Source: Actinoplanes lutulentus | GTDB taxonomy: Bacteria; Actinomycetota; Actinomycetes; Mycobacteriales; Micromonosporaceae | Direction of reading: 5' to 3' | DNA: 64,000 nucleotides | NCBI RefSeq assembly: GCF_003259845.1 | Contig: NZ_QLMJ01000005.1 | Span: forward strand, 62,001-126,000 | In this document: piece after piece, positions 4,710 to 21,658 of the stretch | Position numbering within the stretch: position 1 is the first letter of the stretch | Layout: each line of letters opens with the position of its first letter | Notes under the pieces: generated by a model | What the model was told of the DNA's origin: nothing | Database searches by the model: none | Seen by the model: only the letters and a program-made list of their open reading frames with translations | Program-made: the position numbers and the translations under genes

Positions 4710-4744
4710 CCACCCCGGGGGCACCGCCGGCTGGCAGGGCCACA

Positions 4745-5257: not shown

Positions 5258-5758
5258 TTAGAGGATTTCGCGTAGCTTGCCGGTTTGTACGTCGTAGACG
5301 AAGCCTCGGACTGACGTCTTTGTCGGGATGAAGGGGTCGTCGAGGATGCGGCGGATCGACTGGCGGACGTCGGCGTCGAGGTCGGGGAAGGCCTCCGCGG
5401 ACCAGGGCGGTTTGATGCCGACCTCGCGCTCGATGTCGGCCTTGAATCCGTCGTCGGTGAAGGTCAGCATGCCGCAGTCGGTGTGGTGGATCAGGATGAT
5501 CTCGACGGTGCCGAGCAGGCGCTGGCTGATCGCCAGGCTGCGCAGTTCGTCGGCGGTGACGACGCCGCCGGCGTTGCGGATCACGTGGGCGTCGCCTTCG
5601 GTGAGGCCCAGGATGCCGTACGGGTTGAGGCGTGCGTCCATGCAGGCCAGGACGGCGACGCGTTTGGCGGGCGGCAGCGGCAGGTCGCCTTTGTCGAAGG
5701 TGGCGGCGTAACGCTCGGCGTTGGCGAGCAGCTCATCGGTGACGCTCATGGAAGTCAT
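5258..5758 (-). CDS. Beta-class carbonic anhydrase
   Basis: About 166 residues; interconverts CO2 and bicarbonate in the cytosol. Seen: CMDAR (first zinc Cys plus the Asp-Arg dyad), then IHHTDCGM with the His and second Cys zinc ligands, in a compact bacterial beta-CA. The open frame runs far upstream without homology, so the true start is ATG 5758 (MTSMSVTDELL) or ATG 5749; no ribosome site precedes either, and an AT-rich TAGGCATAGT just upstream would suit a leaderless start. The 125-bp gap to glgP holds no other gene. Confidence 0.92.
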   Translation of the reverse strand: MTSMSVTDELLANAERYAATFDKGDLPLPPAKRVAVLACMDARLNPYGILGLTEGDAHVIRNAGGVVTADELRSLAISQRLLGTVEIILIHHTDCGMLTFTDDGFKADIEREVGIKPPWSAEAFPDLDADVRQSIRRILDDPFIPTKTSVRGFVYDVQTGKLREIL

Positions 5759-5883
5759 ACTATGCCTACAAACTTGATAGGAGAAGCGCGACCGCCCACC
5801 GGTAGCGATGGCCGCGTGACGGCCTCGCACCGGCAGATGGTCGCGCTGGAAAACCGCGGTACCTGTGCTTTGCGCGTACCGAA

Positions 5884-8310
5884 TCAGACGCGGACTGGCG
5901 TGACGCGCCAGATGCGGGCTGCGTAATCGGCGACCGTGCGATCGGCGGAGAAGAAGCCGCTGTGTGCGGTGTTGAGGATCGACATGCGGGTCCAGTGATC
6001 GGGGTCGCGCCAAGCGGCCTCGACGGCGTCCTGGCAGTCGATGTAGGAGCGGTAGTCGGCGAGCGTGAGGTATTCGTCGTGGCCGAGCAGCGAGCCGGCC
6101 ACGTCGTGGCCGACGTCGCCGAAGACGCCCGCGTTGATCGCGTCGATGGCCTGGCGTAGTTCGGCGTCCTGCTCGTAGTGGTCGGCCGGGCGGTAACCGG
6201 AGATCTTGCGTTCGGCGGCCTCGAAGGCGTCCAGGCCGAAGAGGAAGAAGTTCTCCTCGCCGACCCGGGCGCGGATCTCGATGTTCGCGCCGTCCAGGGT
6301 GCCGATCGTGAGCGCACCGTTGAGGGCGAGCTTCATGTTGCCGGTGCCGGACGCCTCCTTGCCGGCCAGCGAGATCTGCTCGCTCAGGTCGGCGGCCGGC
6401 ACGATCTGCTCGGCGAGGGTGACGTTGTAGTTCTCCGCGAAAACCACTTTCAGGTACGGCGAGACGACCGGATCAGCGGCGATCGTGGCACCCACCGCGT
6501 TGATCAGCCGGATGATGTTCTTGGCGGCGTGGTAGGCCGGGGCGGCCTTGCCGGCGAAGAGCACGGTACGCGGAATCCAGTCGCCGTTCGGATCGTTCCG
6601 GATCCGCTGGTACTGGGTGATGATGTGCAGCAGTTTGAGCTGCTGGCGCTTGTACTCGTGGAAGCGCTTGATCATCACGTCGGTGAGCGAGTCCGGATCG
6701 CCGGCCGCGAGGTCGACCTTGTTGGCCCGCTTGATCGAACGCCAGCGTTCCTGGAAGGACGCGTCGCCGGCGAAGGATTCGAGTTCGGCCAGGCGTTCCA
6801 GGTCGGTCAGCCAGCCGTCGTCACCCAGCGATTCGGTGATCAGGTCGGAGAGACGCGGGTTCGCCAGCTTGACGAAACGGCGGGGTGAGATGCCGTTCGT
6901 GACGTTCTGGAATTTCGCCGGCCAGAGATCGGCGAAGTCGTTGAGAACGGTCTCGCGCAGCAGTTTCGAGTGCAGTTCGGCCACGCCGTTGACGGCTTCG
7001 GTGCCGACGACGGCGAGGTTCGCCATGCGTACCCGGCGTTCGGGCTGCTCGCCGATGATCGACATCCGGCTCAGCCGGTCGTTGTCACCTGGGAACCGCT
7101 CCTCGACCTCGCGCAGGAACAGCATGTTGATCAGATAGATGATCTCCAGGTGGCGCGGGAGCAGCCGCTCGAAGACGTGCACCGGCCAGGTCTCGAGGGC
7201 CTCCGGCAGCAGCGTGTGGCAGGTGTACGCGAACGTCTTGCGGGTGATCGCCCAGGCCCGGTCCCACTCCAGCTCGTACTCGTCGACCAGCAGCCGCATC
7301 AGCTCCGGGATCGCGATCGTCGGGTGGGTGTCGTTGAGCTGGATGACGGTCTTCTCGGCGAACTCGTCCCAGTTGGAGTTGCGCAGCCGGAACCGGCGGA
7401 TGATGTCCCGCAGCGAGCAGGAGACCAGGAAGTACTGCTGCTTGAGGCGCAGTTCGCGGCCCAGCTCGGTGCTGTCGTCCGGGTAGAGGACCTTGCTGAT
7501 GTTCTCGGCGCGGACCGCTTCCTGCACGGCCTCGGCGTACTGCCCGGCGGAGAAGCGGCTCAGGTCGAACGAGGCCTCGCTGCCCCGCGCGCGCCACAGC
7601 CGGACGATGTTCACGGTGTCGGTGCCGTAACCGGGCACCAGCATGTGGCTGGGCTCGCCGAGCACGATCTCACCGGGGACCCACTTCTTGCGGGTCGACG
7701 ACCCGGGAACCGGCTCGGTGTGCCCGTAGAAGCCGACGGTCTGCCGGTCGTCCGGCGCCGGGAACTCCCACGGGTTGCCCTGGAACGCCCAGTCGTCCGG
7801 GCGCTCGGCCTGCGCGCCGTCGCTGAGCGACTGCTTGAAGATGCCGAAGTCGTAGCGGATGCCGTAACCGACCGCGGGGATGTCGCGGGTGGCCATCGAG
7901 TCGACCAGGCAGGCCGCGAGCCGGCCGAGGCCACCGTTGCCGAGGCCGGGCTCGACGTCCAGGCCTTCCAGCTCCTCCAGGGTGCGGCCCAGTGCCTTGA
8001 CCGCCTGCCCGGCGATCTCGCCGGTGCCGGAGTAGAGGAGGTTCTGTTCGAGTTGGGCGCCGAGCAGGAACTCGGCGGAGAGGTAGTAGACCCAGCGGGG
8101 GTTGCTGGCGTAGTGCGCGGCGGCGGTGCGCGCGCGTCTCTCGGCGAGATGGTCACGAACGGTCAGGGAGAGCGTCTCGTACGCGTCCCGCGGGCTAGCC
8201 GATTCGACCGTGGTGCCGCGCCGGAAGTAGAGGTTGCTCAACAGGTCCTGCTGGAACTCATCGACGGTCTTGCCGAGTTTGCGAAGACCGATGCCCTGTC
8301 GAAGATCCAT
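5884..8310 (-). CDS. glgP: Glycogen (alpha-1,4-glucan) phosphorylase
   Basis: 808 residues, full length for a bacterial GT35 phosphorylase. It releases glucose-1-phosphate from glycogen or maltodextrin using pyridoxal phosphate. Seen: [19 protein letters not shown] near the N-terminus, [20 protein letters not shown], and [11 protein letters not shown] with the PLP-binding Lys. It is monocistronic; the carbonic anhydrase follows after 125 bp on the same strand. Its upstream region contains a TTGACA-like -35 and a DnaA-box-like pair at 8369-8398. Confidence 0.96.
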
Positions 8311-8368
8311 GCCGCCATTGTGCCGCGTCCGGGTTTCAGATGGCTCGCGTTCTCCGCAGACGCCTTCA

Positions 8369-8398
8369 TGGACAAGATTGCTCAGTGTTTTGTCAACA
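8369..8398. promoter_or_regulatory. Inverted TGGACAA-N14-TTGTCAAC pair upstream of glgP
   Basis: TGGACAA (8369-8375) and TTGTCAACA (8390-8398) face each other across 14 bp. The right half matches the Streptomyces-type DnaA box TTGTCCACA at 8 of 9 positions. The same half-sites with the same 14-bp gap occur at 27510-27540. It may be an operator or simply the glgP -35 region. Confidence 0.35.
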
Positions 8399-8440
8399 AT
8401 CTATGGTCCTGATTACAAAGGACGGTCAGGGTGATGCAAG

Positions 8441-8459
8441 TTAGGTAAGCCTCTCCTAA
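8441..8459. promoter_or_regulatory. Iron box (IdeR/DmdR1 type)
   Basis: TTAGGTAAGCCTCTCCTAA matches the actinobacterial iron-box consensus TTAGGTTAGGCTAACCTAA at most positions. It lies 49 bp before the YncE-like gene start, fitting iron-dependent repression. Confidence 0.8.
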
Positions 8460-8507
8460 GTTGATGCATGACCGCTCTCCACCGAGGGCGCCTCAGTTAG
8501 GAGCACC

Positions 8508-9545
8508 ATGTCTGTAACCACCCGTCGCCTGGCGGCAGCCGCCGTCCTCGCCGCCGCCACCGGTGTGCTGGCTGTTCCGGGCACCGCGACCGCCCACCAG
8601 GACGTCACCACGGTCACGTCCGCCGACCTGATCAAGGGTCTGTACCAGTCCGATTACTCGCAGCGGAACAAGGCCATCTGGGTCACCGCCGCCGTCGGCC
8701 GCCCGCCGGTGCTCAGCTCCGCGCTCCTCAAGGTGGACCCGAAGACGCTCGCCGTCGAGGCCACCATCACCCCGCCGGTCACCAACGAGACCACCGGCGC
8801 CCTCGAGGCCGTCTACGGTGTCGCGGTCGACGACGAGTACAACCGGGTCTGGGTGACCGCGACCCGCAACAACGCCGTCGCCGTGTACGACCAGCGGACC
8901 GGTGCGCACGTCGCCAGCTTCGCGAACGTGCCGCACGCCCGTGAGATCGTCGTCGACGAGAAGCACAACACCGTGTGGGCCAGCGCGTTCACCTCGGGTG
9001 AGCTGGTCGCGTACGACAGCAAGACCCTGGTCGAGAAGAAGCGGGTCGTGGTGACCGGCGCCGGCCCGACCGGCCTCGTCGTCGACGAGAAGAGCGGCAA
9101 CCTGTACGCCGCCGACCTCAACAACGACAGGATCATCGTGGTGTCGCCGAAGTCGGAGACCCCGAGCTTCATCCCGACCGGCGACGGCCCGATCTCGATC
9201 GACCTGTCGGACGACGGCAAGACCGCGTACACCGCGAACCAGACCGCGGGCAGCGTCTCGTTCGTCAACCTGAAGACCGGCACGGTCACCGCTGAGGTGC
9301 CGACCGGCGCGGGTGCGCTCTCCGTCGCGTACGAGGAGCGGTCCGGCACGGTCCTGGTGGCGAACCGTACCGCCGCCACCGTGACGATCGTCGACGCCAA
9401 GACGGCCGTCGTCGAGGAGAACATCGCCACGGCCGCGAACCCGAACCACATCGAGACCGCGAACGGCAAGGCGTACGCCGTGGACAAGTCCGGCGCCGGC
9501 ACCGACGGCGTGGACTTCATCTACAAGATCGACCCCGCCAACTGA
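8508..9545 (+). CDS. Iron-regulated secreted YncE-like beta-propeller protein
   Basis: 345 residues. Signal peptide about 1-29 (cleavage after TATA), then a single beta-propeller built from YVTN-like repeats (for example VTATRNNAVAVYDQRTG, ANRTAATVTIVDAKT). E. coli YncE is a secreted, iron-repressed propeller, and the iron box upstream fits the same behaviour; the molecular function in that family is unsettled. ATG preceded by AGGAG at 8498-8502. A strong hairpin follows the stop, so it is probably transcribed alone. Confidence 0.88.
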   Translation: MSVTTRRLAAAAVLAAATGVLAVPGTATAHQDVTTVTSADLIKGLYQSDYSQRNKAIWVTAAVGRPPVLSSALLKVDPKTLAVEATITPPVTNETTGALEAVYGVAVDDEYNRVWVTATRNNAVAVYDQRTGAHVASFANVPHAREIVVDEKHNTVWASAFTSGELVAYDSKTLVEKKRVVVTGAGPTGLVVDEKSGNLYAADLNNDRIIVVSPKSETPSFIPTGDGPISIDLSDDGKTAYTANQTAGSVSFVNLKTGTVTAEVPTGAGALSVAYEERSGTVLVANRTAATVTIVDAKTAVVEENIATAANPNHIETANGKAYAVDKSGAGTDGVDFIYKIDPAN

Positions 9546-9560
9546 GGCAGGCCGACGGTG

Positions 9561-9582
9561 TCCCACCCCGTGCGGGGTGGGA
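9561..9582 (+). terminator. Hairpin terminator after the YncE-like gene
   Basis: TCCCACCCCG (9561-9570) and CGGGGTGGGA (9573-9582) form a perfect 10-bp stem 15 bp after the stop codon. No T-run follows. It ends 10 bp before the GTG of the next gene, so it also lies over that gene's ribosome-binding region and may limit its expression. Confidence 0.75.
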
Positions 9583-9592
9583 CACTCCGTCG

Positions 9593-10228
9593 GTGCTGGA
9601 GTTGTTGCTGCCGTCATCGGTGCGTACCGCCGAGGCGTTCACCGACGACCCGAGCGAACCGTGCTTTCCCGGCGAGGAAGACCTGATCGCGACAGCGGTG
9701 CCGGGCCGCCGCCGCGAGTTCCTCACGGCCCGCCGCTGCGCCCGCGAGGCGCTGGCCCTTCTCGGTCAGGCGCCGGTCGCGATCCGCCCCGGCCCCCGCC
9801 GCGAGCCGCTCTGGCCCGATGGGGTGACCGGCAGCATCACCCACTGCGCCGGATATCGCGCCGCGGCGGTCGCCGTTACCGCTGATGTACGCGGTCTCGG
9901 GATCGACGCCGAACCGCACGCCCCGCTGCCACCGCGTGTCCTGCCCGCGGTGACCACCGCACAGGATCAGGAACACCTCGCGGTTCTGGCGAAGTCGGAG
10001 CCGTCGGTGCACTGGGATCGGCTGCTCTTCAGCGCCAAGGAGTCGGTGTACAAGGCCTGGTATCCGGTGGCCCGGACCTGGCTGGGTTTCACCGACGCTC
10101 ACTTGATCATCGACCCCGGAGGTTTGTTCCGGGCGGAGATCTTGATCGATGGGCCTTTTGAAAAGATCACCGGCCGCTGGGTGATCGAACACGGTCTCGT
10201 CGTCACCGCCGTCACGGTTGATCACTGA
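9593..10228 (+). CDS. 4'-phosphopantetheinyl transferase (Sfp/EntD type)
   Basis: 211 residues. It transfers phosphopantetheine from CoA to carrier-protein serines. Seen: GSITHC, GIDAEP (Mg-binding Asp and Glu) and FSAKESVYKAW, the three Sfp/EntD signatures. It is the natural activator of the ArCP (27126-27446) and of the T domain of the NRPS (17818-21609). GTG start 47 bp after the YncE-like gene. Its stop overlaps the convergent sortase gene by 7 bp. Confidence 0.94.
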   Translation: MLELLLPSSVRTAEAFTDDPSEPCFPGEEDLIATAVPGRRREFLTARRCAREALALLGQAPVAIRPGPRREPLWPDGVTGSITHCAGYRAAAVAVTADVRGLGIDAEPHAPLPPRVLPAVTTAQDQEHLAVLAKSEPSVHWDRLLFSAKESVYKAWYPVARTWLGFTDAHLIIDPGGLFRAEILIDGPFEKITGRWVIEHGLVVTAVTVDH

Positions 10229-11685
10229 GACTTCGCCGTCACCTCGTCCAGTACCGCGAAGAGGATGTAGCGCTGTTTCGACGAGAACCTCGGATGGCAG
10301 GCGGTCAGCGTCAGCATCGCCACGGTCGGTTCCACGCCCGGTTTCTCCGGGGTCGGCGCGACCACGTCCACCCGGGTCGGCGGCACGATCACGTGCCGCT
10401 GAACGCGATAGACATACATGCTCGTCGCGGTCTCCACCATGATCGGATCGCCCGCGCGCAGGGTGTCGATGTCGTTGAAAGGCAGTCCCGCCGGCCCGCG
10501 ATGCCCGGCTACGGCCATGTTCCCGATCTGCCCCGGCAGCGCGCTCCCCGGATAATGCCCGGGCCCTTTCCGCAGGTCAGCAGTGCTGACACCCTCGACG
10601 ATCGTGTACTCGGCATGCCATCGAGGCACGTGCAGCACCGCAAAGGGCTGCCCCTGAACGGGCGCCGGCTGGTCCAGGCTGGTGACGGTCGTCGTGTCGT
10701 GGTTCTTCGCTTCGGTGGCCGGAGCACCGGCCCACGCCGCCGCCAGCTGACTGTCCAGCGCCGCCTGCGCGCCGGCCGTCTCCGGCCCGGGCAACAGCGT
10801 CTGCGCCGCCAGCACCACCGCACAGAGCCCACCCGCCGCGATCAACCCGGCCCCACCGGCTCGCAGCGGCGACATCCGCTTCAGCGACGCTGCCGCCCTG
10901 ACGATCAAAATCAGACCCAGGGGTACGAGTAAAAGCAGCCATGGCCACACCGCGGTGCTCGTGGTGAACGTGGCTTCGGTGCCGGCCGTGCCGTCGATCC
11001 GCCCGGTCAGCTGATATCGGCCGGCCGCCGGGGCTGCCACCGCGAACGGGATCTCCAGCCGCAGCTCGGCACCCGGTGCCAGCGGCCCGATCGGCAGCGC
11101 CTTCATCGCCTCGGATCCAGCGGCCCGGCCCAGGTCCAGGCTCAACTCGGACCCGGGGGAGGCGGCGGTCCCCTCGTTGCGCACGGTCACCGTCATCGTC
11201 CGGTATGCCGTACCGCCGAGCAGCGACCACAGGGTCCAGCGGTTCCGCACGCCGGCGTCCAGGACGGTGAGCTCCGCGTCGCCGGTGGTGGCGGTGACCG
11301 TGGCGGCGTCCGCCACGTCGGTCACGTCGATCGGGGTGTCGGCGATCTTCTCGCCGGTGATTGTCGACGCGCGGACCACGCACGGGCAGCCGACCGGCGG
11401 GGCCGAGACGCGCAACCGGAGGCCGGCCTTGCCGGTGGCGGGCACCGAGGTGGACGAGGCGGATTGCACGGCGCAGTCGGCGGAGCCGTCCCGGGCCTCG
11501 TTGCCGCAGAGGGAAGCGGTGACGACACCGGCCGGCCAGCCGGTGAGCGAGACGGTGATGGTGTCGCCGATCAGAGTGGTCTTCTGATCGACAGTGATGG
11601 CGGGGCCGGCCGCCGAGGCTGATCCGGGGATGGCCAGGAGTGCCAGGAGTGCCAGCGCGGCGGTGAGCGTGGCCGCTCTTCTCAT
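10222..11685 (-). CDS. Multidomain membrane protein with C-terminal class E-type sortase
   Basis: 487 residues. Order: signal peptide 1-25; a neocarzinostatin-like beta domain with paired cysteines (VSLTGWPAG, PVGCPCVVRAS); a second beta domain to about 250; two transmembrane helices near 255-310; an extracellular sortase from about 340. Sortase residues seen: His in AGHRG, Cys in LTLTACHPR, and the Arg of SSKQR. Sortases cleave an LPxTG-like signal and attach the protein to the wall; fusion to adhesin-like domains is unusual. ATG 11685 overlaps the previous stop (ATGA) with GGTGAGGG upstream. Possible client: the LPKTG protein at 15084-15680. Confidence 0.85.
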   Translation of the reverse strand: MRRAATLTAALALLALLAIPGSASAAGPAITVDQKTTLIGDTITVSLTGWPAGVVTASLCGNEARDGSADCAVQSASSTSVPATGKAGLRLRVSAPPVGCPCVVRASTITGEKIADTPIDVTDVADAATVTATTGDAELTVLDAGVRNRWTLWSLLGGTAYRTMTVTVRNEGTAASPGSELSLDLGRAAGSEAMKALPIGPLAPGAELRLEIPFAVAAPAAGRYQLTGRIDGTAGTEATFTTSTAVWPWLLLLVPLGLILIVRAAASLKRMSPLRAGGAGLIAAGGLCAVVLAAQTLLPGPETAGAQAALDSQLAAAWAGAPATEAKNHDTTTVTSLDQPAPVQGQPFAVLHVPRWHAEYTIVEGVSTADLRKGPGHYPGSALPGQIGNMAVAGHRGPAGLPFNDIDTLRAGDPIMVETATSMYVYRVQRHVIVPPTRVDVVAPTPEKPGVEPTVAMLTLTACHPRFSSKQRYILFAVLDEVTAKSQ

Positions 11686-12677
11686 GCCCTCACCTTTCGG
11701 CGGCGTCTGACTGCCCAGGTCACGACGGCTGCCAGGAGCAGGATCAGCAGGTAGTACCAGGACCAGGCCCACACGCCCACAGTGGATTTCGCGGTGGCGC
11801 GGTCAGGGGAGGACAGCTCGACACTTGCGGTCAGGCGGAGTAGGGCTGGGCGGGCGGTTACGCGTACCGTGCGCTCCAGAGCCGCACCGGGCAGAAGCTC
11901 GGGCAACGCGTCGGGGTGGGCCGAATCGGCCGCCAGGCCGAAGAGGCCGGCGACCGTGACCGACTGGCCCGGCGTGATGCGGGTGTTCCCGGTGTTGCGG
12001 ACGGTGTATGACAGTTCGAGGTCGCCGGTGAACGGCCGCCACCCCGTGCGATAGGTCGCGCGCAGATCGTCCACCCGCAGGCCGGGATGCAGGTCGCCGG
12101 TGACTCGCAGGTAGAGACGGGTGCCGACGCGCTGCTCGACGCGAGTGGTGTTGCCGGTGGCGTCCGCCGAGGCCGTGGTGATCGAGGCGACGATGCCGCC
12201 GGCGTGGTCACCGGGAGTGGCGTTCTCTGGGATCTTCAGCACGAACGGGATGTCCGCGCGGGAGCGGGCCGGAACGGTCACCGTTTTCGCGCCGAGCTCG
12301 ATCCATGATCCGACGTCGGTGGATTCGCGGGTGGCCGGGAGCAGGTCGTATCCGCCGGACGCGGTGGTGAACGCGTCGCTGCCGTACACCGTGAAGGTCA
12401 TCTCCGCGGTGCCGAGGTTGGTGACCGCGAGGTAATCGGTGACCGTGCCGCCGGGCACCAGGTCGTAGGTGAAGAACGGCCGGTTGCCGGGGCCGGTCTT
12501 GCTCGAAGGCTGCACGGACCAGGCGGCGTCGGCTTTCGCGGCTTTCGCAGTGCTTGTCGCGGTTTTCACGGCGCTTTTCGCGGCTTCCGCGGTGCTTGTC
12601 GCGGGGAGAGCGGCGGACGCGGGCGTGGGCGCGGCGAGCAGCGTGAGCGCGGTGAGCGCGGCGGCAGTCCTGGACAC
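11682..12677 (-). CDS. DUF916-like (WxL-interacting) membrane protein
   Basis: 331 residues: signal peptide 1-23, an Ala/Lys/Thr-rich stretch, then beta domains beginning FFTYDLVPGGTVTDYLAVTN, a typical DUF916 / WxL-interacting-protein start, a second domain of the partner type from about 185, a transmembrane helix near 300-322 and a basic tail RRRRKVRA. In Firmicutes such proteins pair with WxL proteins and bind peptidoglycan. GTG 12677 is chosen for AAGGA six bases upstream; the frame open to 12791 runs through a terminator hairpin. Its neighbours (WxL-domain protein upstream, sortase downstream) complete a surface operon. Confidence 0.82.
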   Translation of the reverse strand: MSRTAAALTALTLLAAPTPASAALPATSTAEAAKSAVKTATSTAKAAKADAAWSVQPSSKTGPGNRPFFTYDLVPGGTVTDYLAVTNLGTAEMTFTVYGSDAFTTASGGYDLLPATRESTDVGSWIELGAKTVTVPARSRADIPFVLKIPENATPGDHAGGIVASITTASADATGNTTRVEQRVGTRLYLRVTGDLHPGLRVDDLRATYRTGWRPFTGDLELSYTVRNTGNTRITPGQSVTVAGLFGLAADSAHPDALPELLPGAALERTVRVTARPALLRLTASVELSSPDRATAKSTVGVWAWSWYYLLILLLAAVVTWAVRRRRKVRA

Positions 12678-12704
12678 ATCGATTCCTTCGCGGTCTTTTA
12701 CCAA

Positions 12705-12744
12705 CGACAACCGGGACAGGATTCGCGGCCCGTCCCGGTTGTCG
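12705..12744 (-). terminator. Terminator/attenuator between the WxL-domain and DUF916-like genes
   Basis: CGACAACCGGGAC (12705-12717) pairs perfectly with GTCCCGGTTGTCG (12732-12744) around 14 nt. It follows the WxL gene stop and precedes the DUF916 start by 28 bp, so it may set the ratio of abundant surface protein to membrane partner. Confidence 0.75.
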
Positions 12745-12753
12745 TGCGCCGAA

Positions 12754-13944
12754 CTAGATGGCGGTGAGGGTGAGCGTCGCCGAGTAGTCACCCGGCGCCG
12801 TGGTGGTGGGCAGGCGCAGTTCGAGACCCGCGCCGAGTGCCGCGGTGCCCCGGCCGGCGCCGGACGCCGCCGTCGCGAGGGCGGACGCCGACTTCAGGCC
12901 GGTGCCCGCGGCGACCGCGGAACCCGCCGTGACCTGCTGGCCCGCCGACGTCGTGACGACCTTCGGGGTCCAGCCGAGGTACTTGCCGTCGACGGTTCCG
13001 GCCGTGCCGGTGAAGTCACCGATCTGGCCGGAGACGCTCCAGCCCGGGTTCGCGGCACGCAGGTCGCTGACCGTGACGGTCGGCAGCGCGCCGGTGGAGA
13101 CCAGGGCGTCGAGCTCGGAGGTGACCTGCGGCGTGCTCAGCGCCACCGAGCCGGAGCTGACCTTGATGGCGAGCGCGCCGGTGTCCGGAACGCTGGCCGT
13201 GATGGTCACGGTCGCCGACACCGCGCCGGGCTCCTCGGTCTCCTCGGCCGCGACGGTGAAACTCACCTGGACGCTGACGCCGGGGGAGGCGAGGAAGTGC
13301 AGGGTGTGCGCGCCCTCCGCGGCGGTCGCCGGCACCGGTACGGCCTGACCGGCGAACGTGCCGTCGGCGCCGCTCGTGAACGTGGTCAGGATCGTGGTCT
13401 TGTCGAGCTTCACGGTGACCGTTGTGGACGCCGGATATCCGGCGCCGGAAGCGGTCAGGCTCGCGCCCGCCGTCACCGTGTCGGAGGCGAGGGTCACCGC
13501 GGGGGTGGCCGCGGCCGCTTCCACGGTGAACAGCTCGGTGTGCACGCTGCGTACCGCGTCGCCGGCCGCACCGGATCCGGTGAGCATCCGCAGCCAGTGA
13601 CCGGAACCGGTCACCGAGGCCGGCAGGGTGACCGAGCCGGTGACCGTGCCGGTGCCGTCCGCGGCCTTCACCTCGGCGAAGACGTCGGAGCCGGCGGCGT
13701 CGCGCACCACCCCGTCGTCGATCTTCACCATGACCACCGAGCCGGTGCCGTCGGTGTTGACGAAACCGGTGCCGGTGAAGTTGACCTTCCCGCCCGGGGT
13801 GGTCGTGGTGGAGACCAGCGCGACGGTGGCGCCGCTGGCGTTGTCCGGCCGCGGATCGGCGGCGAGCGCCGGCGCGGCGACCGCGACGGCGGCGACCAGG
13901 CCGGTGATGACCGCTGCCCATATAGGAGGTCGTGAGGGGTTCAA
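12754..13944 (-). CDS. Secreted WxL-domain protein with two Ig-like modules
   Basis: 396 residues. Signal peptide about 1-29; two related beta modules (about 36-140, with FTGTGFVN and HWLRMLTGSG; about 145-228, with LTASGAGYP and HTLHFLASPG); an acidic linker; and a WxL-type domain from about 235 with VSDLRAANPGWSVSG, a GWTP segment and a C-terminal LPTTTAPGDYSATLTL. WxL domains bind peptidoglycan non-covalently. Module 1 is clearly related to the LPKTG protein at 15084-15680. TTG 13944 is preferred (AAAGGACC upstream) because the longer start at 13995 would sit against the iron box. Confidence 0.78.
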   Translation of the reverse strand: MNPSRPPIWAAVITGLVAAVAVAAPALAADPRPDNASGATVALVSTTTTPGGKVNFTGTGFVNTDGTGSVVMVKIDDGVVRDAAGSDVFAEVKAADGTGTVTGSVTLPASVTGSGHWLRMLTGSGAAGDAVRSVHTELFTVEAAAATPAVTLASDTVTAGASLTASGAGYPASTTVTVKLDKTTILTTFTSGADGTFAGQAVPVPATAAEGAHTLHFLASPGVSVQVSFTVAAEETEEPGAVSATVTITASVPDTGALAIKVSSGSVALSTPQVTSELDALVSTGALPTVTVSDLRAANPGWSVSGQIGDFTGTAGTVDGKYLGWTPKVVTTSAGQQVTAGSAVAAGTGLKSASALATAASGAGRGTAALGAGLELRLPTTTAPGDYSATLTLTAI

Positions 13945-14004
13945 GGCGAGGTCCTTTCCGATTGTGAGTGAGATTGTTGACCAAAAGGTCATCACAATCG
14001 TGAA

Positions 14005-14023
14005 GGAGGTTAGGCTAACCTAA
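14005..14023. promoter_or_regulatory. Iron box in a divergent promoter region
   Basis: GGAGGTTAGGCTAACCTAA matches the iron-box consensus at 17 of 19 positions, including an uninterrupted TTAGGCTAACCTAA. It separates the WxL-domain surface operon (minus) from the siderophore-uptake operon (plus), so one site can repress both in iron-replete cells. Confidence 0.88.
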
Positions 14024-14078
14024 CGTCGGCCAGCTAGACAGAGTGCAGCTGGTCACCTGAAGCTTTTGGAGGGCATCG

Positions 14079-15074
14079 GTGGGAACACGCGGCTTGCGCG
14101 TTTTGACTGTCGTGAGTGTTCTCGGAATGGCCCTGACCGCCTGCACATCCGGTTCCGCAAGCGACTCCACGGGTGCTGACGGGCGTACCGTCGTGGATGG
14201 AAACGGTGTGAGCGTGACCGTTCCGCGGAGCCCGGCCCGGGTGGTCGCGCTCAGCGAGCCCACACTGGACGGCGCGCTTGCGCTCGGCGTCGACGTCGTC
14301 GGCACCACGAGCGGCCGTGGGCAGGGAAGTGTGCCCGGTTACCTGAGCGACCAGGCCGACGGGATCCCGATCGTCGCCTCCGTCGCCGGGCCCAACATCG
14401 AGCAGATCCTCGTGCTCAAACCCGACCTTATCGTCACCGACGGCACCGTGGCCGCCGACGAATCGGTCCTCGGCAAGCTCGCCGGCATCGCGCCCACGGT
14501 CTTCGTGAGCAAGAAGGCCGCCGACTGGAAAGGCGCGTTCACCAGCCTCGCCGAGGTGCTCGGCAAGAGTGCCGAGGCCGAGAAGGTCCTGGCCGGGTAC
14601 GCCAGCCGGGTCGACGAGATCCGCGGCAAGCTGGGCGACCACGCCGACGACACGGTCAGCATCGTCCGCTGGGGCACCGGCCAGCCCTCGGTGATCCTCA
14701 AGGAGCTGCCGCCCAGCAAGGTGGTCGCCGACGTCGGCCTGCGCCGCCCGGCCGCACAGGACAAGGACGGTCTCGGCCACTCCACGCCGGTCAGCCGGGA
14801 GAACCTCGACCAGCTCGACGCGGACTGGATGTTCTTCGGCACCCTCGGTGGCGCGACGAACCCGCAGGGCGGCAATACCGGAACCGCGGTCGGCGTCGAG
14901 GCCAGCGCGAAGATGCTCCAGGACGACGCGCTCGTGACTCCCGGGTTCACGCAGCTCACGGCGTACCGCAACAAGCACGTCATCCCGGTGGACGGCTCCG
15001 CGTGGGCCAGCGCGGGCGGCCCGTTCGCCGCCACCGTGATCCTCGACCAGCTCGGCACAGCTCTTCTCAACTAA
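14079..15074 (+). CDS. Iron-siderophore ABC transporter substrate-binding lipoprotein
   Basis: 331 residues. Lipobox LTAC at about 19-22, then a FepB/FhuD-type class III binding fold (ARVVALSEPTLDGALALGVD near the start, a long central helix, ANKHV-like C-terminal strand). It should capture ferric siderophore outside the membrane and deliver it to the FecCD pair downstream. GTG start with GGAGGG at 14068-14073. First gene of an iron-box-controlled operon. Confidence 0.93.
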   Translation: MGTRGLRVLTVVSVLGMALTACTSGSASDSTGADGRTVVDGNGVSVTVPRSPARVVALSEPTLDGALALGVDVVGTTSGRGQGSVPGYLSDQADGIPIVASVAGPNIEQILVLKPDLIVTDGTVAADESVLGKLAGIAPTVFVSKKAADWKGAFTSLAEVLGKSAEAEKVLAGYASRVDEIRGKLGDHADDTVSIVRWGTGQPSVILKELPPSKVVADVGLRRPAAQDKDGLGHSTPVSRENLDQLDADWMFFGTLGGATNPQGGNTGTAVGVEASAKMLQDDALVTPGFTQLTAYRNKHVIPVDGSAWASAGGPFAATVILDQLGTALLN

Positions 15075-15083
15075 GGATCTCTC

Positions 15084-15680
15084 ATGAGAGTCGCCGTCAT
15101 CGTTGCTCTTGTCTTCGCCGGCGTTATTACCGGTGGGCCGGCTTCTGCTTCTGCTTCGGCTTTGGTTTTTGCGCCTCGGCCGTCGAACCCGGTTGGTGCG
15201 ACGGTGTCGCTCGCCTCCAGCAGTGTGGTGGCGGGTAAGACGATCCGGTTCACCGGAACCGGGTTCGTCAATGACAGCGGTCGTGGCCAGGTTGTCACGA
15301 TCAAGCTGGACGATGTGGACATTCTGCGGACCGTGAACGCCAGCGACAGCGGGGCGATCTCCGGGACGGTGACGGTGCCGGCGGCCACGAAGGCGGGGGC
15401 TGAGCACTGGTTGCGGTTCCTGGCCGGGTCCGGGCAGGAGAACGACTCGCCGGCGCGGAGCCTGGCGAGCGGATATTTCGCCGTCACCGGGGCGTCGTCT
15501 TCTTCCCCGGCGGCGTCGGTTTCCGCGTCGGCGTCCGCCGCCGCGTCTGTTTCCTCTGGGAACACGCTGCCTAAAACGGGCATTGACGCTGGTCCGCTGC
15601 TGGCCGGGACCATCGCGCTGCCGATCGCCGGGATCGCGTTGCTGCTGATCGAACGGCGTCGCCGGCGGGCATCTGCGTGA
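15084..15680 (+). CDS. LPKTG-anchored surface protein in the siderophore-uptake operon
   Basis: 198 residues. Signal peptide about 1-24; one beta module (about 36-134) with FTGTGF at 56-61 and HWLRFLAGSG at 108-117, homologous to module 1 of the WxL protein; a Ser/Ala spacer (137-159); then the complete sorting signal: LPKTG at 162-166, a hydrophobic helix and RRRRR. It sits between the binding protein and the permeases, a position suggesting a wall-bound step in iron capture. Ligand unknown. The sortase at 10222-11685 is the nearest candidate anchor enzyme. Confidence 0.87.
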   Translation: MRVAVIVALVFAGVITGGPASASASALVFAPRPSNPVGATVSLASSSVVAGKTIRFTGTGFVNDSGRGQVVTIKLDDVDILRTVNASDSGAISGTVTVPAATKAGAEHWLRFLAGSGQENDSPARSLASGYFAVTGASSSSPAASVSASASAAASVSSGNTLPKTGIDAGPLLAGTIALPIAGIALLLIERRRRRASA

Positions 15681-16708
15681 CGATCCTGTCGGCCCGGCCG
15701 GCTATTCGTCGCGCTTCCTCCAGCCGTCGCTTTATCGCGCTCGCTCTTGCCGGGGTGGTGCTTCTGATCGCTGTGGTGGCGAGTGTCGCCCTCGGGGCCA
15801 GGCCGGTTCCACTCGGACACGTGTGGGCTGCGCTGACCGATTATGACGGTAGCTCTGACGCTGTCGCGGTTCGCGATCTGCGGTTACCCCGTACCCTCCT
15901 GGGGGTTTTTGTCGGCGCCGCTCTCGGCGTCGCCGGATGTCTGATGCAGGCGCTGACCCGCAATCCGCTCGCCGAGCCGGGCGTGCTCGGCGTGAATGCC
16001 GGCGCCGCCGCGGCGATCGTCAGCGCAATGAGTTTCCTGGGTGTGACCGCACCGGCCGGGTACGTCTGGTTCGCGATGGCCGGCGCCGGCGGCGCTTTCG
16101 CGCTGGTCTACCTGCTCGGCGGAGGCGGCCGGATCAAGGAGTCACCGGCCCGCCTCGCCGTGGCCGGAACCGCCGTAGGCGCCGCGCTGACCGGCTTCAC
16201 CTCAGCCGTAGTGCTTTTCGACTCGACCGCTTTCGATCAGTTCCGTTTCTGGGCCGTGGGTGCCCTCGCCGACCGCGGCATGCCGGTCTTCTGGCAGGTG
16301 GCGCCGTTCCTCGCGGGCGGCCTGCTGCTCGCGGCGTCGATCGGCCCGGCGCTCAACACCCTCGCCCTCGGCGACGATCAAAGTCGGTCACTAGGGTCAA
16401 ACCCCCTTGTGGTACGCGGAACCGCGGCGCTAGCGGCCGTAGCCCTGAGCGCCGGGGCGACCGCCGCAGCCGGGCCGATCGGGTTCGTGGGGCTGGCCGT
16501 ACCGCACGCGGCCCGCTTCATCGTCGGCGCCGACGAACGCTGGCTGATGGCGTTCTCCGCGCTGGCCGCACCGAGCCTGCTGCTGATCGCCGACGTGACC
16601 GGGCGGGTCCTGGGGAGGCCGGGCGAGCTGGAAACCGGGGTGGTGACCGCGATGGTGGGGGCGCCGCTCTTCATCTACCTGGTCCGGCGGTTGCGAGTTC
16701 CCGCATGA
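15677..16708 (+). CDS. FecCD-family siderophore ABC permease (first subunit)
   Basis: 343 residues with about nine or ten membrane helices. FecCD features: LRLPRTLLGVFVGAALGVAG, QALTRNPLAEPGVLGVNAGA, and the late GPIGFVGLAVPHAAR loop that contacts the ATPase. GTG overlaps the LPKTG gene stop, indicating coupled translation. It pairs with the next gene to form the membrane channel. Confidence 0.95.
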   Translation: MTILSARPAIRRASSSRRFIALALAGVVLLIAVVASVALGARPVPLGHVWAALTDYDGSSDAVAVRDLRLPRTLLGVFVGAALGVAGCLMQALTRNPLAEPGVLGVNAGAAAAIVSAMSFLGVTAPAGYVWFAMAGAGGAFALVYLLGGGGRIKESPARLAVAGTAVGAALTGFTSAVVLFDSTAFDQFRFWAVGALADRGMPVFWQVAPFLAGGLLLAASIGPALNTLALGDDQSRSLGSNPLVVRGTAALAAVALSAGATAAAGPIGFVGLAVPHAARFIVGADERWLMAFSALAAPSLLLIADVTGRVLGRPGELETGVVTAMVGAPLFIYLVRRLRVPA

Positions 16709-17739
16709 GATCCGCTGTCCTGCGGGTCGGGCCGGTCTCGACGCGGTTCGCGCCGCGCGCCGTGCTGGCCGGCTTGCTGATCACGCTGGTAGCGGCCGCG
16801 ACCGCCGTCTACAGCCTCACCGTCGGTGACTATCCGCTGAGTGTGTCCGAAGTGCTCGCCACACTCAGCGGTCACGGCGACCGGGCGTCCGAGTTCGCCG
16901 TCTACGGCCTGCGCCTTCCCCGGGTGCTCACCGCGCTCTTCGTGGGGATGGCGTTCGGCATGGCCGGCGCGGTCTTCCAGAGCCTCTCGCGTAATCCGCT
17001 GGGCAGCCCCGACATCATCGGCTTCACCACCGGCTCGGCAACCGGCGCGCTGATCGGCATCCTGCTGCTCGGCGGCGGCAGCCTGGTGATCGCCGGCAGC
17101 GCGGTCATCGGCGGCCTGGTGGTGGCCGCGCTGGTCTACCTGCTGGCGGTAACGGACGGCGTCGTCCGCCCGGGACAACTGGTGCTGGTCGGGATCGGGG
17201 CCAGCGCGGTGCTCGCCTCCTTCAACGGATATCTGCTGACAAGAGCGGATCTGGGCGACGCGATGCAGGCCGCGGTCTGGCTCACCGGCAGCCTCAACGG
17301 CCGTGGCTGGGAACACGCCATCCCGGTGGGCGTCGCGGTAGCTCTTGGCGGTGTCGCGGTGCTGTGCCTGGCCCGTCCACTGGACACGCTGGCGCTGGGC
17401 GATGACACGGCCGGGGGTTTGGGCGTACCGATCGAACGCGTACGCCGAGCCCTGCTGATCGGTGCCGTAGCCCTGACCGCGGTAGCCACCGCCTCGGCCG
17501 GCCCGGTCCCTTTCATCGCCTTGGCCGCGCCCCAGGTAGCCCGCCGCCTGACCCGCTCCCCAGACGCATCACCGCTGGTAGCGGGGCTGACCGGCGCAGC
17601 CTTGCTGGCACTGGCCGACTTGGCGGCCCAGCGCTTGTTCGCCCCGGTCGCCCTTCCGGTCGGGGTGCTGACGGCGGCCCTCGGTGGCGTCTACCTGGTC
17701 TGGCTACTGGCCGCCCAACGCAAAGCCGGCCGCTGGTAA
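16705..17739 (+). CDS. FecCD-family siderophore ABC permease (second subunit)
   Basis: 344 residues. FecCD signatures: LRLPRVLTALFVGMAFGMAG, QSLSRNPLGSPDIIGFTTG, and GPVPFIALAAPQVARR. The start is ATG 16705, overlapping the previous stop as ATGA; the open frame extends far upstream without homology. The operon ends here: no ATP-binding subunit follows, so the ATPase must come from elsewhere in the genome. Confidence 0.95.
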   Translation: MRSAVLRVGPVSTRFAPRAVLAGLLITLVAAATAVYSLTVGDYPLSVSEVLATLSGHGDRASEFAVYGLRLPRVLTALFVGMAFGMAGAVFQSLSRNPLGSPDIIGFTTGSATGALIGILLLGGGSLVIAGSAVIGGLVVAALVYLLAVTDGVVRPGQLVLVGIGASAVLASFNGYLLTRADLGDAMQAAVWLTGSLNGRGWEHAIPVGVAVALGGVAVLCLARPLDTLALGDDTAGGLGVPIERVRRALLIGAVALTAVATASAGPVPFIALAAPQVARRLTRSPDASPLVAGLTGAALLALADLAAQRLFAPVALPVGVLTAALGGVYLVWLLAAQRKAGRW

Positions 17740-17817: not shown

Positions 17818-20800
17818 TCAGCCGGCTAGGTGGGGGTTCAGGTCGTTGGCGATGATCTTCAGGGCGGCCGGGGAGACCATGCCCGGGTGGGTGCAGTCCA
17901 GCTCACGGACAACCACCTCACCACCGATGTACGACCCCCACGCGGACGCCGACAACCAGTCCTCGGCCCGGGGCGCCGCCGCTACGAAGATCAGCGCGTC
18001 GCCGTCGTAGAAGCGGTGCTGGTGCTCGCGCATCATCCGCGCGTTCTCGGCCACGACCAGCGGGATCTTCGCGAGCACGTCGTCGCCCAGCTCGGCGAGC
18101 GGGCTGTCCGCCCGCCGCAGAACCCCGACCACGGACTCCACAGTGAGCGGCCCGCCGACAGCGGACTCGTCGCGCCCCGCCATGTGAAGAAGCGCCCGCA
18201 ACGCGTCCTCGGACGACGGCGCGGGCAGGTCACGCCACTGATCACTGGGGTACGCGTCAAGCAGCGCCAGCATCGACACCTCCTCACCGGCCGCCCGCAA
18301 CGCCGCCGCGATCTCCTGAGCGAGAACGCCCCCGATCGACCACCCCGCCAGCGCATAGGGCCCACCCGGCCGAATATCCTGAATTTCCGTGATATAGCGG
18401 GCGGCTGTCTCCGCAAGGGAAGCCGAGTCATCAATAAAAGCCGTGAACGCCGGCGACTGGATCCCGTAAACCGCCACCGACGGATCCAGATGCGCCAGCA
18501 AACCCGAATAACACCAGGCCAACCCACCCGCCGGATGCACCACGAACAACGCCGGCCCGGATCCCGCCCGCAGCGGCAGCACGACACCCAGCCCATCGGT
18601 GCCGGCCACTGAAGGATCGAGACGCGCCGCCAGCCCCGCCACCGTCGGCGCCGCGAACACCGCTGCCAGCGACAATTCCGACCCCAGCGAAGCCCGGATC
18701 CGCTGCACCAGCGTCACCGCCAGCAGCGAATGCCCACCCAGATCGAAGAAATTGTCGTCCGGCCCCGGCAACGGCACCTCCAGCACCTCGGCCATCAGCC
18801 GCGCGACCGCCACCTCCGCCGGCGTCCGCAGCGTGCCACCGGAAACAGCCGCAGCCGGTGCCGGCAGCGCCTGCCGGTCCAGCTTTCCGCTGGGCGTCAG
18901 CGGCAGCTCACTCATTTCCACCACGGCGCCGGGCAGCATGTGGTCCGGCACAAGCGGCGCAAGATACGCCCGAACCCCTTCAAGATCAAGATCACCCACT
19001 ACGTACGCACAAAGCCGCCCGTCAATCAGCGCAACAGCCGCCCGCCCCACGGCCGGATGCTCGTTGAGCAGTGCTTCGATCTCCCCGAGCTCGACCCGGA
19101 ATCCACGGATCTTGACCTGTCCGTCGGTGCGGCCGAGGAACTCGATCGTCCCGTCAAAACGCCATTTAGCCAGGTCACCGGCCCGATAGAGCCGCCCGAG
19201 AAGAGGATCGTCGAGGAACCGCTCGGCGGTCAGCGCCGGTCGGTTCAGATATCCGGAGGCCAGCTGCGCCCCGGCGATGTAGAGCTCACCCGGCACACCC
19301 GGCGGCACCGGCCGGCGGCCCGCGTCGAGCAGATAGATCTGGGTGTTCCAGACCGGCCGCCCGATCGGCACCGGCCCGGGCGGATCACTCGGCAGCACCG
19401 GCTGATACGTCACGTCGACCGAGGCCTCAGTGGGTCCATAGAGATTGTGAAGACCGGAACCGATCACCGCGTGGAAGCGCCGCGTCAGATCCTCGGGCAG
19501 CTCCTCACCACTGCAGATCACCCGGCGCAACGTCGCACGGGTGGATGCGGCGGCCTCCTCGCCGAGGAAGACCCGCAGCATCGACGGCACGAAGTGGACC
19601 GTCGTGACGCGTTCCTGAACGATCAGTGATGCCAGGTAGGCGGGGTCCTTGTGCCCTTCGGGCTTCGCCATGACCAGGGTGGCCCCGGTGATCAGCGGCC
19701 AGAACAGCTCCCAGACGCTGACGTCGAAGCCGATCGGCGTCTTCTGCAGAACCCGTTCGCCGGGTGCCAGACGGTACTCGTGCTGCATCCAGAGCAGCCG
19801 GTTCACGATGCCGCGATGCGGGACGAGCACACCTTTCGGCCGCCCGGTCGACCCCGACGTGTAGATCGCATAGGCCGTGTCAGAAGGCGACGCCTGGCCG
19901 ATCTCGATCAGCGGAACCGGGCAGCGGGAAGGTAGTTCGCGCAGCACGACGACCGGCTGCGCGTCCTCGACCATGAAGGCCAGCCGGTCGGCCGGATACG
20001 ACAGATCCAGCGGCAGATATCCGGCGCCCGACCGCAGCACACCGAGCAGCGCCACCATCAGATCGATGCCGCGCGGGATCGCGACCGCGACGAGCGTGCC
20101 GGGTTTCGCACCGCGCTCGGCAAGCCACCGCGCCAGGCGGTCAGCGCGTTCATGCAGCTCCGCATAGCTGATCTCGACGCCCTCCGCGCGGACCGCGGGG
20201 GCATGCGGCGTCCGTGCGGCCTGTTGCGCCAGGAGCGTGGTCAAGGTCTTCTCGGGTACGCGCGAAGCAGTCTCGTTCCAGGCGCGGAGCACGAGATCTC
20301 GTTCGGTGTCGGTCAGCACGTCCACCTCGGACACCACCTGGTCCGGGCCGATGTCGGCGAACGTGGTGAAGAGCCGGATCAGCCGCGCGAAGTGCCCGTC
20401 GAGTTCCTCGTCGCTGTAGCTGTCCGGGTTGGCGTCGACGGTCAGGTCGAGCCGCCCGGTGCCGGCGTCCAGCCCGACGGTGACCTCAAGGTCCTCAGTC
20501 GGTCCGGTGGCGAGGTAGTGAACCCGCGCGGACACGCCCGGGCCGAGGTCGAGACTGCGGCGGAACGGTTTGACGTTGACCTGCGGCCCGGACAGTCGCC
20601 GTCCGGTACCGACCAGCCCGAGATCGCGTTGCAGCCACTCGTACCGATATCGCTGATGGCGCGAGACGGCGCGCAACTCGTCCCGCACGGCCGCGACCAA
20701 TGCACGCAGAGTGATGCCTTCCGGAGCCGCCAGGCGCAACGGCAGGACGTTGACCACGCTGACCGGCACCCGCGCGGCGCCGGTGCCGAGGCGGCCGGAG

Positions 20801-21609
20801 ACCGGCATGCCCAGGGTCAGGTCGGCCTCGCCGGTGATCCGGTGCAGGTAGAGGGCGGTGATGGCGTACGCGGCCTCGGCCCACGTGACGCCTAGCCGGT
20901 CGGCGGCGGCGCGCAACTCGTCGGCTGTGGACTCGGGTAATTCGATGTGCCGGTGTGCGTACCGATGGGAAGTGGGCGCGGGCCGCTGACTGAGGGTGAC
21001 CGGTTCGCGGGTGTTCTTGAGGCGGTCGAGCCAGAACCTGCGGTCGTCGGCGAACCTGTCGGAGGCGATGTAGGCCCGCTCGTCCTCAGCCAGCGAGTCG
21101 ACGGTCCGGAACGCGGCCGGGAAAGCGTCCTGGAAGGTCGAACCCCGGCCGAGCGCGGCGTACGCGGCCACGACCTTCTCGGTGACCATCGCGAAGGCGT
21201 ACCCGTCGAGCAGGATGTGATGCGCCCGGAAGTACCAGACGGCCTGTTCCGGGCCGGTGCGAAGCACCGCCTGGCGAACGAGTGGCGCGCCGGTGAGCGG
21301 CAGCGCCTCCGCGAGGTCGGCGTCGATCCAGCGGCGGACGGCGGCCTCGCCGGGCAGATCCACGATCTCCGGTCCGGTGGCCGGCTGCTCGATCCGCCAG
21401 ACCTGGTCACCCTCGGCGGCGAAGCCGGTACGCAGCACGTCGGTGGCCTCGGTGACCTGCCGGATCGCCTCGGCGAGCCGGTCCGTGTCGAGAGGACCGT
21501 CGATGGTGATGCGGTGGGCGCAGAGGTACGACGGGTTCTGAGGATCGAGGAGCTGGGCGAACCAGAGCGCCTGCTGAGGAGCGGTCAGGGGGCGGTGATC
21601 AACATCCAT
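17818..21609 (-). CDS. Single-module NRPS (C-A-T-TE), EntF-like, predicted serine-activating
   Basis: 1263 residues. C domain about 1-440 (HHILLDG at 130-136); A domain about 470-960 with YTSGSTGRPKG; T domain with DLGGHSLL; TE from about 1060 with GWSIGG and a late CTHPG His. The specificity pocket (FDVSVWELFW, TTVHFVPSM, VICSGE, YGPTEASVDV) reads as a DVWH-I-S-L-V-D-K-like code, matching serine in EntF. This predicts condensation of 2,3-DHB with Ser and TE-driven oligomerisation. The ATG is within 3 bp of the iron box, so the mRNA is probably near-leaderless. No MbtH gene is nearby. Confidence 0.93.
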   Translation of the reverse strand: MDVDHRPLTAPQQALWFAQLLDPQNPSYLCAHRITIDGPLDTDRLAEAIRQVTEATDVLRTGFAAEGDQVWRIEQPATGPEIVDLPGEAAVRRWIDADLAEALPLTGAPLVRQAVLRTGPEQAVWYFRAHHILLDGYAFAMVTEKVVAAYAALGRGSTFQDAFPAAFRTVDSLAEDERAYIASDRFADDRRFWLDRLKNTREPVTLSQRPAPTSHRYAHRHIELPESTADELRAAADRLGVTWAEAAYAITALYLHRITGEADLTLGMPVSGRLGTGAARVPVSVVNVLPLRLAAPEGITLRALVAAVRDELRAVSRHQRYRYEWLQRDLGLVGTGRRLSGPQVNVKPFRRSLDLGPGVSARVHYLATGPTEDLEVTVGLDAGTGRLDLTVDANPDSYSDEELDGHFARLIRLFTTFADIGPDQVVSEVDVLTDTERDLVLRAWNETASRVPEKTLTTLLAQQAARTPHAPAVRAEGVEISYAELHERADRLARWLAERGAKPGTLVAVAIPRGIDLMVALLGVLRSGAGYLPLDLSYPADRLAFMVEDAQPVVVLRELPSRCPVPLIEIGQASPSDTAYAIYTSGSTGRPKGVLVPHRGIVNRLLWMQHEYRLAPGERVLQKTPIGFDVSVWELFWPLITGATLVMAKPEGHKDPAYLASLIVQERVTTVHFVPSMLRVFLGEEAAASTRATLRRVICSGEELPEDLTRRFHAVIGSGLHNLYGPTEASVDVTYQPVLPSDPPGPVPIGRPVWNTQIYLLDAGRRPVPPGVPGELYIAGAQLASGYLNRPALTAERFLDDPLLGRLYRAGDLAKWRFDGTIEFLGRTDGQVKIRGFRVELGEIEALLNEHPAVGRAAVALIDGRLCAYVVGDLDLEGVRAYLAPLVPDHMLPGAVVEMSELPLTPSGKLDRQALPAPAAAVSGGTLRTPAEVAVARLMAEVLEVPLPGPDDNFFDLGGHSLLAVTLVQRIRASLGSELSLAAVFAAPTVAGLAARLDPSVAGTDGLGVVLPLRAGSGPALFVVHPAGGLAWCYSGLLAHLDPSVAVYGIQSPAFTAFIDDSASLAETAARYITEIQDIRPGGPYALAGWSIGGVLAQEIAAALRAAGEEVSMLALLDAYPSDQWRDLPAPSSEDALRALLHMAGRDESAVGGPLTVESVVGVLRRADSPLAELGDDVLAKIPLVVAENARMMREHQHRFYDGDALIFVAAAPRAEDWLSASAWGSYIGGEVVVRELDCTHPGMVSPAALKIIANDLNPHLAG

Positions 21610-21611
21610 AG

Positions 21612-21630: not shown

Positions 21631-21658
21631 CTAGGTGAGTGGTGTCGTGGAGGTGTGC

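Follow-up and report, generated by a model that had tools for sequence, protein, structure and literature searches.

A WxL/DUF916 surface gene set sharing an iron box with siderophore uptake genes in Actinoplanes lutulentus

The csc/WxL gene clusters of Firmicutes, described in 2006, encode a DUF916 protein (CscA), WxL proteins (CscB and CscC), and a small LPxTG protein (CscD) (PMC1534035; also PMC9772566, PMC10599100). The WxL proteins and the DUF916 or WxL-interacting proteins (WxLIP) are viewed as a host-binding platform anchored to peptidoglycan (PMC10599100, PMC9772566). The papers on these clusters propose carbohydrate use or host binding, and we found no iron terms where we looked for them. 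So far, WxL/DUF916 genes, which have mainly been known in lactic-acid bacteria, have been interpreted as serving adhesion or carbohydrate use in Firmicutes of gut and plants, and their function is unsettled. Here, we analyze a WxL/DUF916 set of a soil actinomycete, Actinoplanes lutulentus. The set lies in a 64,000-nucleotide stretch of its 9.9 Mb genome (bases 62001-126000 of contig NZ_QLMJ01000005.1; hereafter the window), in which four surface genes share an iron box with the genes of a siderophore importer. Our best reading of the sequence is that a csc-like WxL/WxLIP display chassis, a surface machinery, has been reused for nutrient uptake and carries a putative siderophore-specific domain. 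We favor, with modest confidence, the view that the four gene products form an iron-repressed complex accessory to a FepBDG-type importer; this complex would capture the cell's own ferric siderophore at the wall and hand it over.

Two relays of other bacteria are also close to this locus. The Isd/NEAT system of staphylococci is an iron-regulated haem relay, with a dedicated class B sortase, a lipoprotein, and a permease in one locus. The window set resembles it in its predicted iron regulation, in carrying one immunoglobulin (Ig)-like domain on several surface proteins, a putatively sortase-anchored one included, and in keeping a sortase, a lipoprotein, and a permease together. In contrast to Isd, the sortase is of class E, the anchoring is of the WxL/WxLIP type, the context is that of a siderophore, and the window surface proteins gave no NEAT match at E values up to 5. 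In the HtaA/ChtA-HmuTUV system of corynebacteria, DtxR-controlled surface proteins feed an Hmu-type ATP-binding cassette (ABC) importer (PMC12494546), and the source genome itself has an HtaA-WxL version of it. However, the corynebacterial proteins are anchored by transmembrane (TM) segments, not by WxL/WxLIP or LPXTG (PMC12494546). No HtaA domain was found in the window proteins by profile search, and a siderophore is the most likely ligand here. In function, the window set may resemble the Isd and HtaA relays, though it is neither. We found no paper joining WxL with HtaA in the open-access literature.

The DtxR/IdeR-type iron box at 14005-14023 (GGAGGTTAGGCTAACCTAA, two mismatches to the consensus) lies between two divergent operons, as a preliminary description of this DNA had stated. 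The minus operon encodes the WxL-like protein, the DUF916/WxLIP protein, and a protein fused to a class E sortase. The plus operon encodes a lipoprotein, an LPKTG protein, and two FecCD permeases. Iron boxes with up to three mismatches occur five times in the window and never in 100 shuffles; the whole genome has 25, against two for a reversed control pattern. The core of the 14005-14023 box, GGTTAGGCTAACCTAA, stands at the same place in the orthologous loci of Spirilliplanes yamanashiensis (L052) and of congener G258 (L053), and a box is also kept in L252.

The WxL-like surface protein (12754-13944, minus strand) consists of a signal peptide, two Ig-like domains that we name SurfN1 and SurfN2, and a WxL-like domain (12757-13194). 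The open frame of its gene extends to 13995, and the start is probably the TTG at 13944, behind a putative ribosome-binding site. Profile search and alignment show that the WxL-like domain has a first motif of the W-x-V form and lacks the second Trp. The protein scored 19.1 bits against the Pfam WxL profile and its orthologs scored 21-24 bits, below the cut-off of 25. Nevertheless, its C-terminal part is 43.6% identical (about 150 aa, E 7e-23) to a same-genome paralogue that clears the cut-off at 56-59 bits, in support of the homology proposed earlier.

The next gene, probably starting at 12677, encodes the DUF916/WxLIP protein (11682-12677, minus strand). Its match to the DUF916/WxLIP_PGBD profile (41 bits; cut-off 27.3) bears out the similarity expected at the outset. 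The PGBD is followed by a second beta-rich domain and a C-terminal TM helix (residues 299-330) in the predicted structure, an AlphaFold model built from two sequences with a predicted local distance difference test (pLDDT) of 51 and used for architecture only. The protein has no DUF3324/WxLIP_HBD match at E values up to 5; the predicted second beta-rich domain stands at that place. When modelled by itself from a four-row alignment, the WxL part gave a low-confidence fold, in agreement with the published proposal that WxLIP completes the WxL fold (PMC10599100). A strong RNA hairpin (12685-12757, minus strand, z = -4.5) spans the WxL stop to the DUF916 start and is possibly a processing site or an attenuator. 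A hairpin likewise lies between the WxL and DUF916 genes of the haem locus L055 (6908-6992, z = -3.3), and weaker ones occur at other loci. Such hairpins could possibly allow differential expression inside the operon.

The third minus-strand gene (10222-11685) starts at ATG 11685, overlapping the DUF916 stop (ATGA). Its membrane protein has neocarzinostatin-like and CARDB domains, TM segments, and a C-terminal class E sortase, which scored 101 bits against the sortase profile and 196.8 bits against the class E profile NF033747 (cut-off 160). The preferred substrate motif of class E sortases is LAXTG, and its alanine is proposed to be recognized through a conserved tyrosine in the beta3/beta4 loop (PMC5148588). 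The loop reads AGHRGPAG in the window sortase and AGHRRTYG in a solved class E relative. The tyrosine is replaced in all three sortases, by Ala in the window and by Val or Glu in the orthologs, and the neighboring candidate substrate reads LPKTG, not LAXTG, in all three species. These features fit a dedicated pair of sortase and LPKTG protein.

In the plus operon, an LTAC-lipobox lipoprotein of the FepB-like, siderophore-binding type (14079-15074; Peripla_BP_2, 84 bits) also has a weak IsdE match. The 198-aa LPKTG protein (15084-15680) has a signal peptide, one SurfN, a linker, and a sorting signal, in which the motif (15567-15581; LPKTG[IV]D in both orthologs) precedes a hydrophobic stretch and a basic tail. 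The FecCD permeases, FepD-like (15677-16708) and FepG-like (16705-17739), scored 288 and 261 bits against the FecCD profile and highest against Fe-siderophore/enterobactin permease models. Thus, profile or motif supports the sortase, the LPKTG protein, the lipoprotein, and both permeases of the preliminary description, and its link to siderophore uptake holds through FepB/FecCD and the enterobactin-type locus described below.

The preliminary description had taken the combination of parts as undescribed. This is not so: DUF916, WxL, and small LPxTG proteins make up the csc/WxL cluster, and iron-boxed WxL/DUF916 sets are common in haem loci of these bacteria. As in csc, the DUF916 protein has a C-terminal TM segment, the WxL-type protein has variable N-terminal domains, and a small LPxTG protein is present, all being secreted and co-encoded. 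Unlike the csc clusters, which have two WxL proteins (small and large), the window locus has one, and its WxL domain is degenerate. The absence of the second WxL motif, of a second WxL protein, and of any DUF3324 match makes it a csc variant rather than a plain member. Furthermore, the sortase is fused to an Ig-containing protein, an iron box stands in place of the catabolite-responsive element (CRE) sites, and the set is joined to a siderophore importer.

SurfN, a name coined here, is an Ig-like domain of about 105 residues at the mature N-terminus of both the WxL and the LPKTG proteins. The two are 43% identical (E 4e-26). SurfN1 (13522-13854, minus strand; mature N-terminus PRPDN...HWLR...VRS) is Ig-like in the model, with pLDDT mostly 75-85; the more divergent repeat SurfN2 (13249-13503, minus strand) mostly exceeds 90. 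The AlphaFold model of the WxL protein, from a four-row alignment, shows them as two tandem Ig-like sandwiches. The LPKTG protein has its SurfN at 15174-15494 (plus strand). PRP-N, K-x-DD, HWLR, and RS are invariant in six of six SurfN copies from three species. It is suggestive only that basic and aromatic residues among these conserved positions would suit an anionic catecholate complex.

A SurfN profile matched only the source genome and the Streptomyces-like genome G381 among 396 genomes of the phylum. In G381, a protein of four SurfN copies with a C-terminal hydrophobic stretch is encoded about 100 bases downstream of a perfect iron box. The gene that follows encodes a propeller 66% identical to the YncE-like beta-propeller of the window (8508-9545, plus strand), which has an iron box upstream (8441-8459). 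In G258, the propeller gene lies just upstream of the ArCP-Ent genes, behind an iron box of its own. E. coli YncE is raised in a fur mutant (PMC5120174). The box, SurfN, and propeller of G381 together tie SurfN to iron independently of WxL.

The four surface genes and FepB/FecC/FecD keep their order in G258 and Spirilliplanes at 57-78% identity (57-73% for the surface genes alone), with the box at the same place in both. The ent genes of G258 are on another contig, with a FecD fragment at that contig's end, so the G258 locus is probably continuous. Congener G218 keeps the box at the same place, the lipoprotein (73%), FecC, FecD, EntF, Fes, EntB, and the rest, but its locus has no WxL, DUF916, sortase, or LPKTG gene. 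There, the lipoprotein gene is directly joined to FecC, and an OpuAC gene lies on the other side of the box. Compared with the carriers, G218 shows that the four genes, although spread over two operons, are either all there or all missing, and form an accessory to an importer locus that is complete without them. Joint conservation in relatives, an expectation set earlier, was therefore found in G258 and Spirilliplanes, with absence as a unit in G218. The set is rare: it occurs in one further genome among 67 congeners and, by a close-relative search, in one further record of a collection covering 84,980 species. The passage of siderophores through the thick monoderm wall is little studied; the locus offers an accessory four-gene unit for it, and a species that has the set can be compared directly with a natural counterpart that lacks it.

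The neighborhood of the set points to the likely ligand. An EntF-type nonribosomal peptide synthetase (17818-21609, minus strand; C-A-T-TE), which among solved structures matches E. coli EntF best (789 bits), is followed across an iron box at 21612-21630 by the enterochelin esterase Fes (21635-22909, plus strand; Enterochelin_N and esterase domains). A minus-strand frame at 21599-22978 was rejected in favor of fes as the true gene of that region. The minus-strand ArCP-EntA-C-E-B operon has an iron box at 27467-27485. Profiles identify an EntB-type isochorismatase without carrier domain (22975-23613), an EntE-type adenylating enzyme of the 2,3-dihydroxybenzoate type (23617-25197), an EntC-type isochorismate synthase of the chorismate-binding enzymes (25187-26302), and an EntA-type short-chain dehydrogenase (26359-27129). 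A stand-alone aryl carrier protein (ArCP, 27126-27446) was read by eye from its motif. A 4'-phosphopantetheinyl transferase (9593-10228, plus strand; profile) would play the EntD role. Because EntF, Fes, EntABCE, ArCP, and the transferase surround the surface set, its ligand is most likely the cell's own enterobactin-type catecholate siderophore, not haem. The locus resembles Ent/Fep/Fes in its EntF, EntB, EntE, EntC, EntA, Fes, and FepB/D/G-type genes. It differs in the stand-alone ArCP, in the lack of a FepC ATPase in the operon, and in a monoderm wall complex that would replace the outer-membrane receptor.

We also fetched 92 DUF916 loci, six from the source genome, one from Spirilliplanes, and the others from congeners. 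By their neighbors, 20 are haem loci, three enterobactin-type, 23 metallophosphatase-WxL, 14 Liv ABC, nine Pst ABC, and 23 other. Counting boxes with up to two mismatches within 3.5 kb of DUF916, we find one at 23/23 iron-transport-linked loci and at 1/69 others, though the loci within a class (e.g., the 20 haem loci) are orthologs and these counts are not independent trials. In the haem class, an HtaA domain is fused to WxL, with DUF916 and a haem oxygenase, divergent from HmuTUV. The locus of the source genome itself (L055, C24:45000-60000; 2003-8741) has this arrangement across an iron box at 5671-5689, with HtaA at 138 bits, and 19 orthologous loci in congeners each have the box. Other families of the same bacterial class also have HtaA fused to or beside WxL-type proteins, adjoining FecCD/HmuUV genes. 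At a Pst locus of the source genome (L057, C1:610000-628000; 4730-14064), genes of a WxL protein, DUF916, an LPITG protein, a TM protein, and a sortase lie between PstS-like and PstB genes. One N-terminal domain is common to three of these surface proteins (38-52% identity; 52% between the WxL protein and its LPITG neighbor), an arrangement as with SurfN. Thus, in the haem, Pst, and SurfN classes the anchoring parts are constant and the outward domain changes with the transporter.

The source genome has 5-6 WxL/DUF916 sets, and DUF916 occurs in 77 of 395 sampled genomes of its class, which revises the earlier view of these genes as mainly Firmicute. Among 142 actinobacterial WxL-like domains of the fetched loci, the first motif of the W-x-[LVI] type is usually kept, but Trp is missing from the final 14 residues of every one; the second motif of Firmicute domains lies there. 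On this sequence evidence, we regard the actinobacterial domains as a distinct subfamily. The iron boxes, the fusion to a known haem-binding domain, and the Pst/Liv association suggest a testable role for WxL/DUF916 in capturing nutrients at the wall. More tentatively, and with rather less than even confidence, we suggest that actinobacterial WxL/WxLIP is a general and exchangeable wall chassis of nutrient importers, on which the ligand-binding domain follows the transporter: HtaA would serve haem, SurfN would serve ferric enterobactin-type siderophore, and another domain would serve phosphate. SurfN would then be a new siderophore-binding domain and the locus the first siderophore wall relay.

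At a Liv-type locus of the source genome (L056, C2:172000-190000; 6896-12820), WxL and DUF916 genes and a gene for a neocarzinostatin/CARDB-like membrane protein lie beside ABC genes; the last of these proteins is similar to the sortase fusion of the window in the N-terminal part of the latter (28%, E 1e-17). The sole boxed locus outside the iron-transport classes is L123 (G214:C24:7100-22100; 4262-8279), behind a Gig2-like gene. Its box, with one mismatch, precedes by about 30 bases a 983-aa Ig-WxL gene, which is accompanied by DUF916 but by no transporter. In L197 (G335:C25:104700-119700), a metallophosphatase-WxL/DUF916 set has an iron box at a distance of about 2.7 kb and a substrate-binding protein (SBP)/FecCD cluster at 5-6 kb, which may be chance.

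Together, these data suggest that the surface set helps to retain the iron carrier at the wall or to pass it along there. Under low iron, DtxR/IdeR repression at 14005 would be lifted and both operons turned on. The WxLIP, membrane-anchored via its C-terminal helix, would dock the WxL protein on peptidoglycan, while the fused class E sortase would link the small LPKTG protein covalently to the wall. SurfN on both displayed proteins would bind or concentrate the cell's own ferric enterobactin-type siderophore in the wall and transfer it to the importer's FepB-like lipoprotein and FecCD permeases, after which Fes would free the iron.

Several points weigh against this capture and hand-over. The surface set is not essential for uptake, being found in three species and dispensed with in G218. 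The plus operon has no ABC ATPase gene; a shared one is assumed elsewhere in the genome, for which no search was made. A PDB profile search with the WxL/SurfN alignment gave no match, and a SurfN fold search gave generic complement/macroglobulin Ig-type matches only, from a model with a predicted template modelling score of 0.36; the fold thus gives no pointer to siderophore binding. The orthology within locus classes, as noted, also reduces the weight of the box counts. Moreover, retention, adhesion, or protection would yield an identical genomic pattern.

Retention without hand-over is the strongest rival. The SurfN proteins would then keep secreted siderophore, whether apo or ferric, in the wall against diffusion and competitors. 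The complete importer without surface set in G218, the same domain at two wall positions (and, in G381, an anchored protein that has four of them), and the tie of the set to own siderophore synthesis genes all speak for it. Yet we consider it rather unlikely: in the uptake operon, the LPKTG gene separates the lipoprotein gene from a permease gene, and haem and phosphate sets adjoin importers without siderophore synthesis genes. Adhesion, in which the complex would make iron-starved hyphae stick together or to plant matter and minerals and iron control would act as timing only, would agree with the published platform view of WxL/WxLIP (PMC10599100, PMC9772566) and with the frequency of tandem Ig-like domains in adhesins. 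However, a profile search of the window surface proteins found no carbohydrate- or host-binding domain, and the sister modules vary with the transporter (HtaA at Hmu loci and a shared domain at the Pst locus), a better fit to ligand capture; we judge adhesion improbable.

The preliminary description had proposed wall-attached capture of siderophore or haem. Wall iron capture stands as the best reading, while haem as ligand was rejected on gene context and domain tests. FecCD permease and SBP families also serve haem, and the lipoprotein has its weak IsdE match. Nevertheless, the set has no NEAT, HtaA, or haem oxygenase, enterobactin synthesis and esterase genes surround it, its permeases fit siderophore models best, and haem has a separate locus with HtaA-WxL and HmuTUV (L055). 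Haem capture by the window set is thus very improbable. Less credible still is a chance neighborhood, in which a csc-like wall complex with no relation to the uptake operon came to lie next to it. WxL/DUF916 sets are indeed numerous in these genomes, but this one is kept together in three species with a conserved box and is jointly absent in G218 despite lying in two operons, and SurfN is iron-box-linked elsewhere.

Beyond the ent operon, we noticed three further genes. A 724-aa nSTAND1/AAA NTPase protein (27542-29716, minus strand) with an abrupt-looking end adjoins the operon, and nothing ties it to the system. The gene at 33136-33987 (minus strand) resembles a siderophore-interacting flavoprotein by eye, has no NCBIfam match, and has a weak iron box ahead of it (34008-34026). 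It is followed by a gene for a major facilitator superfamily transporter (31871-33064).

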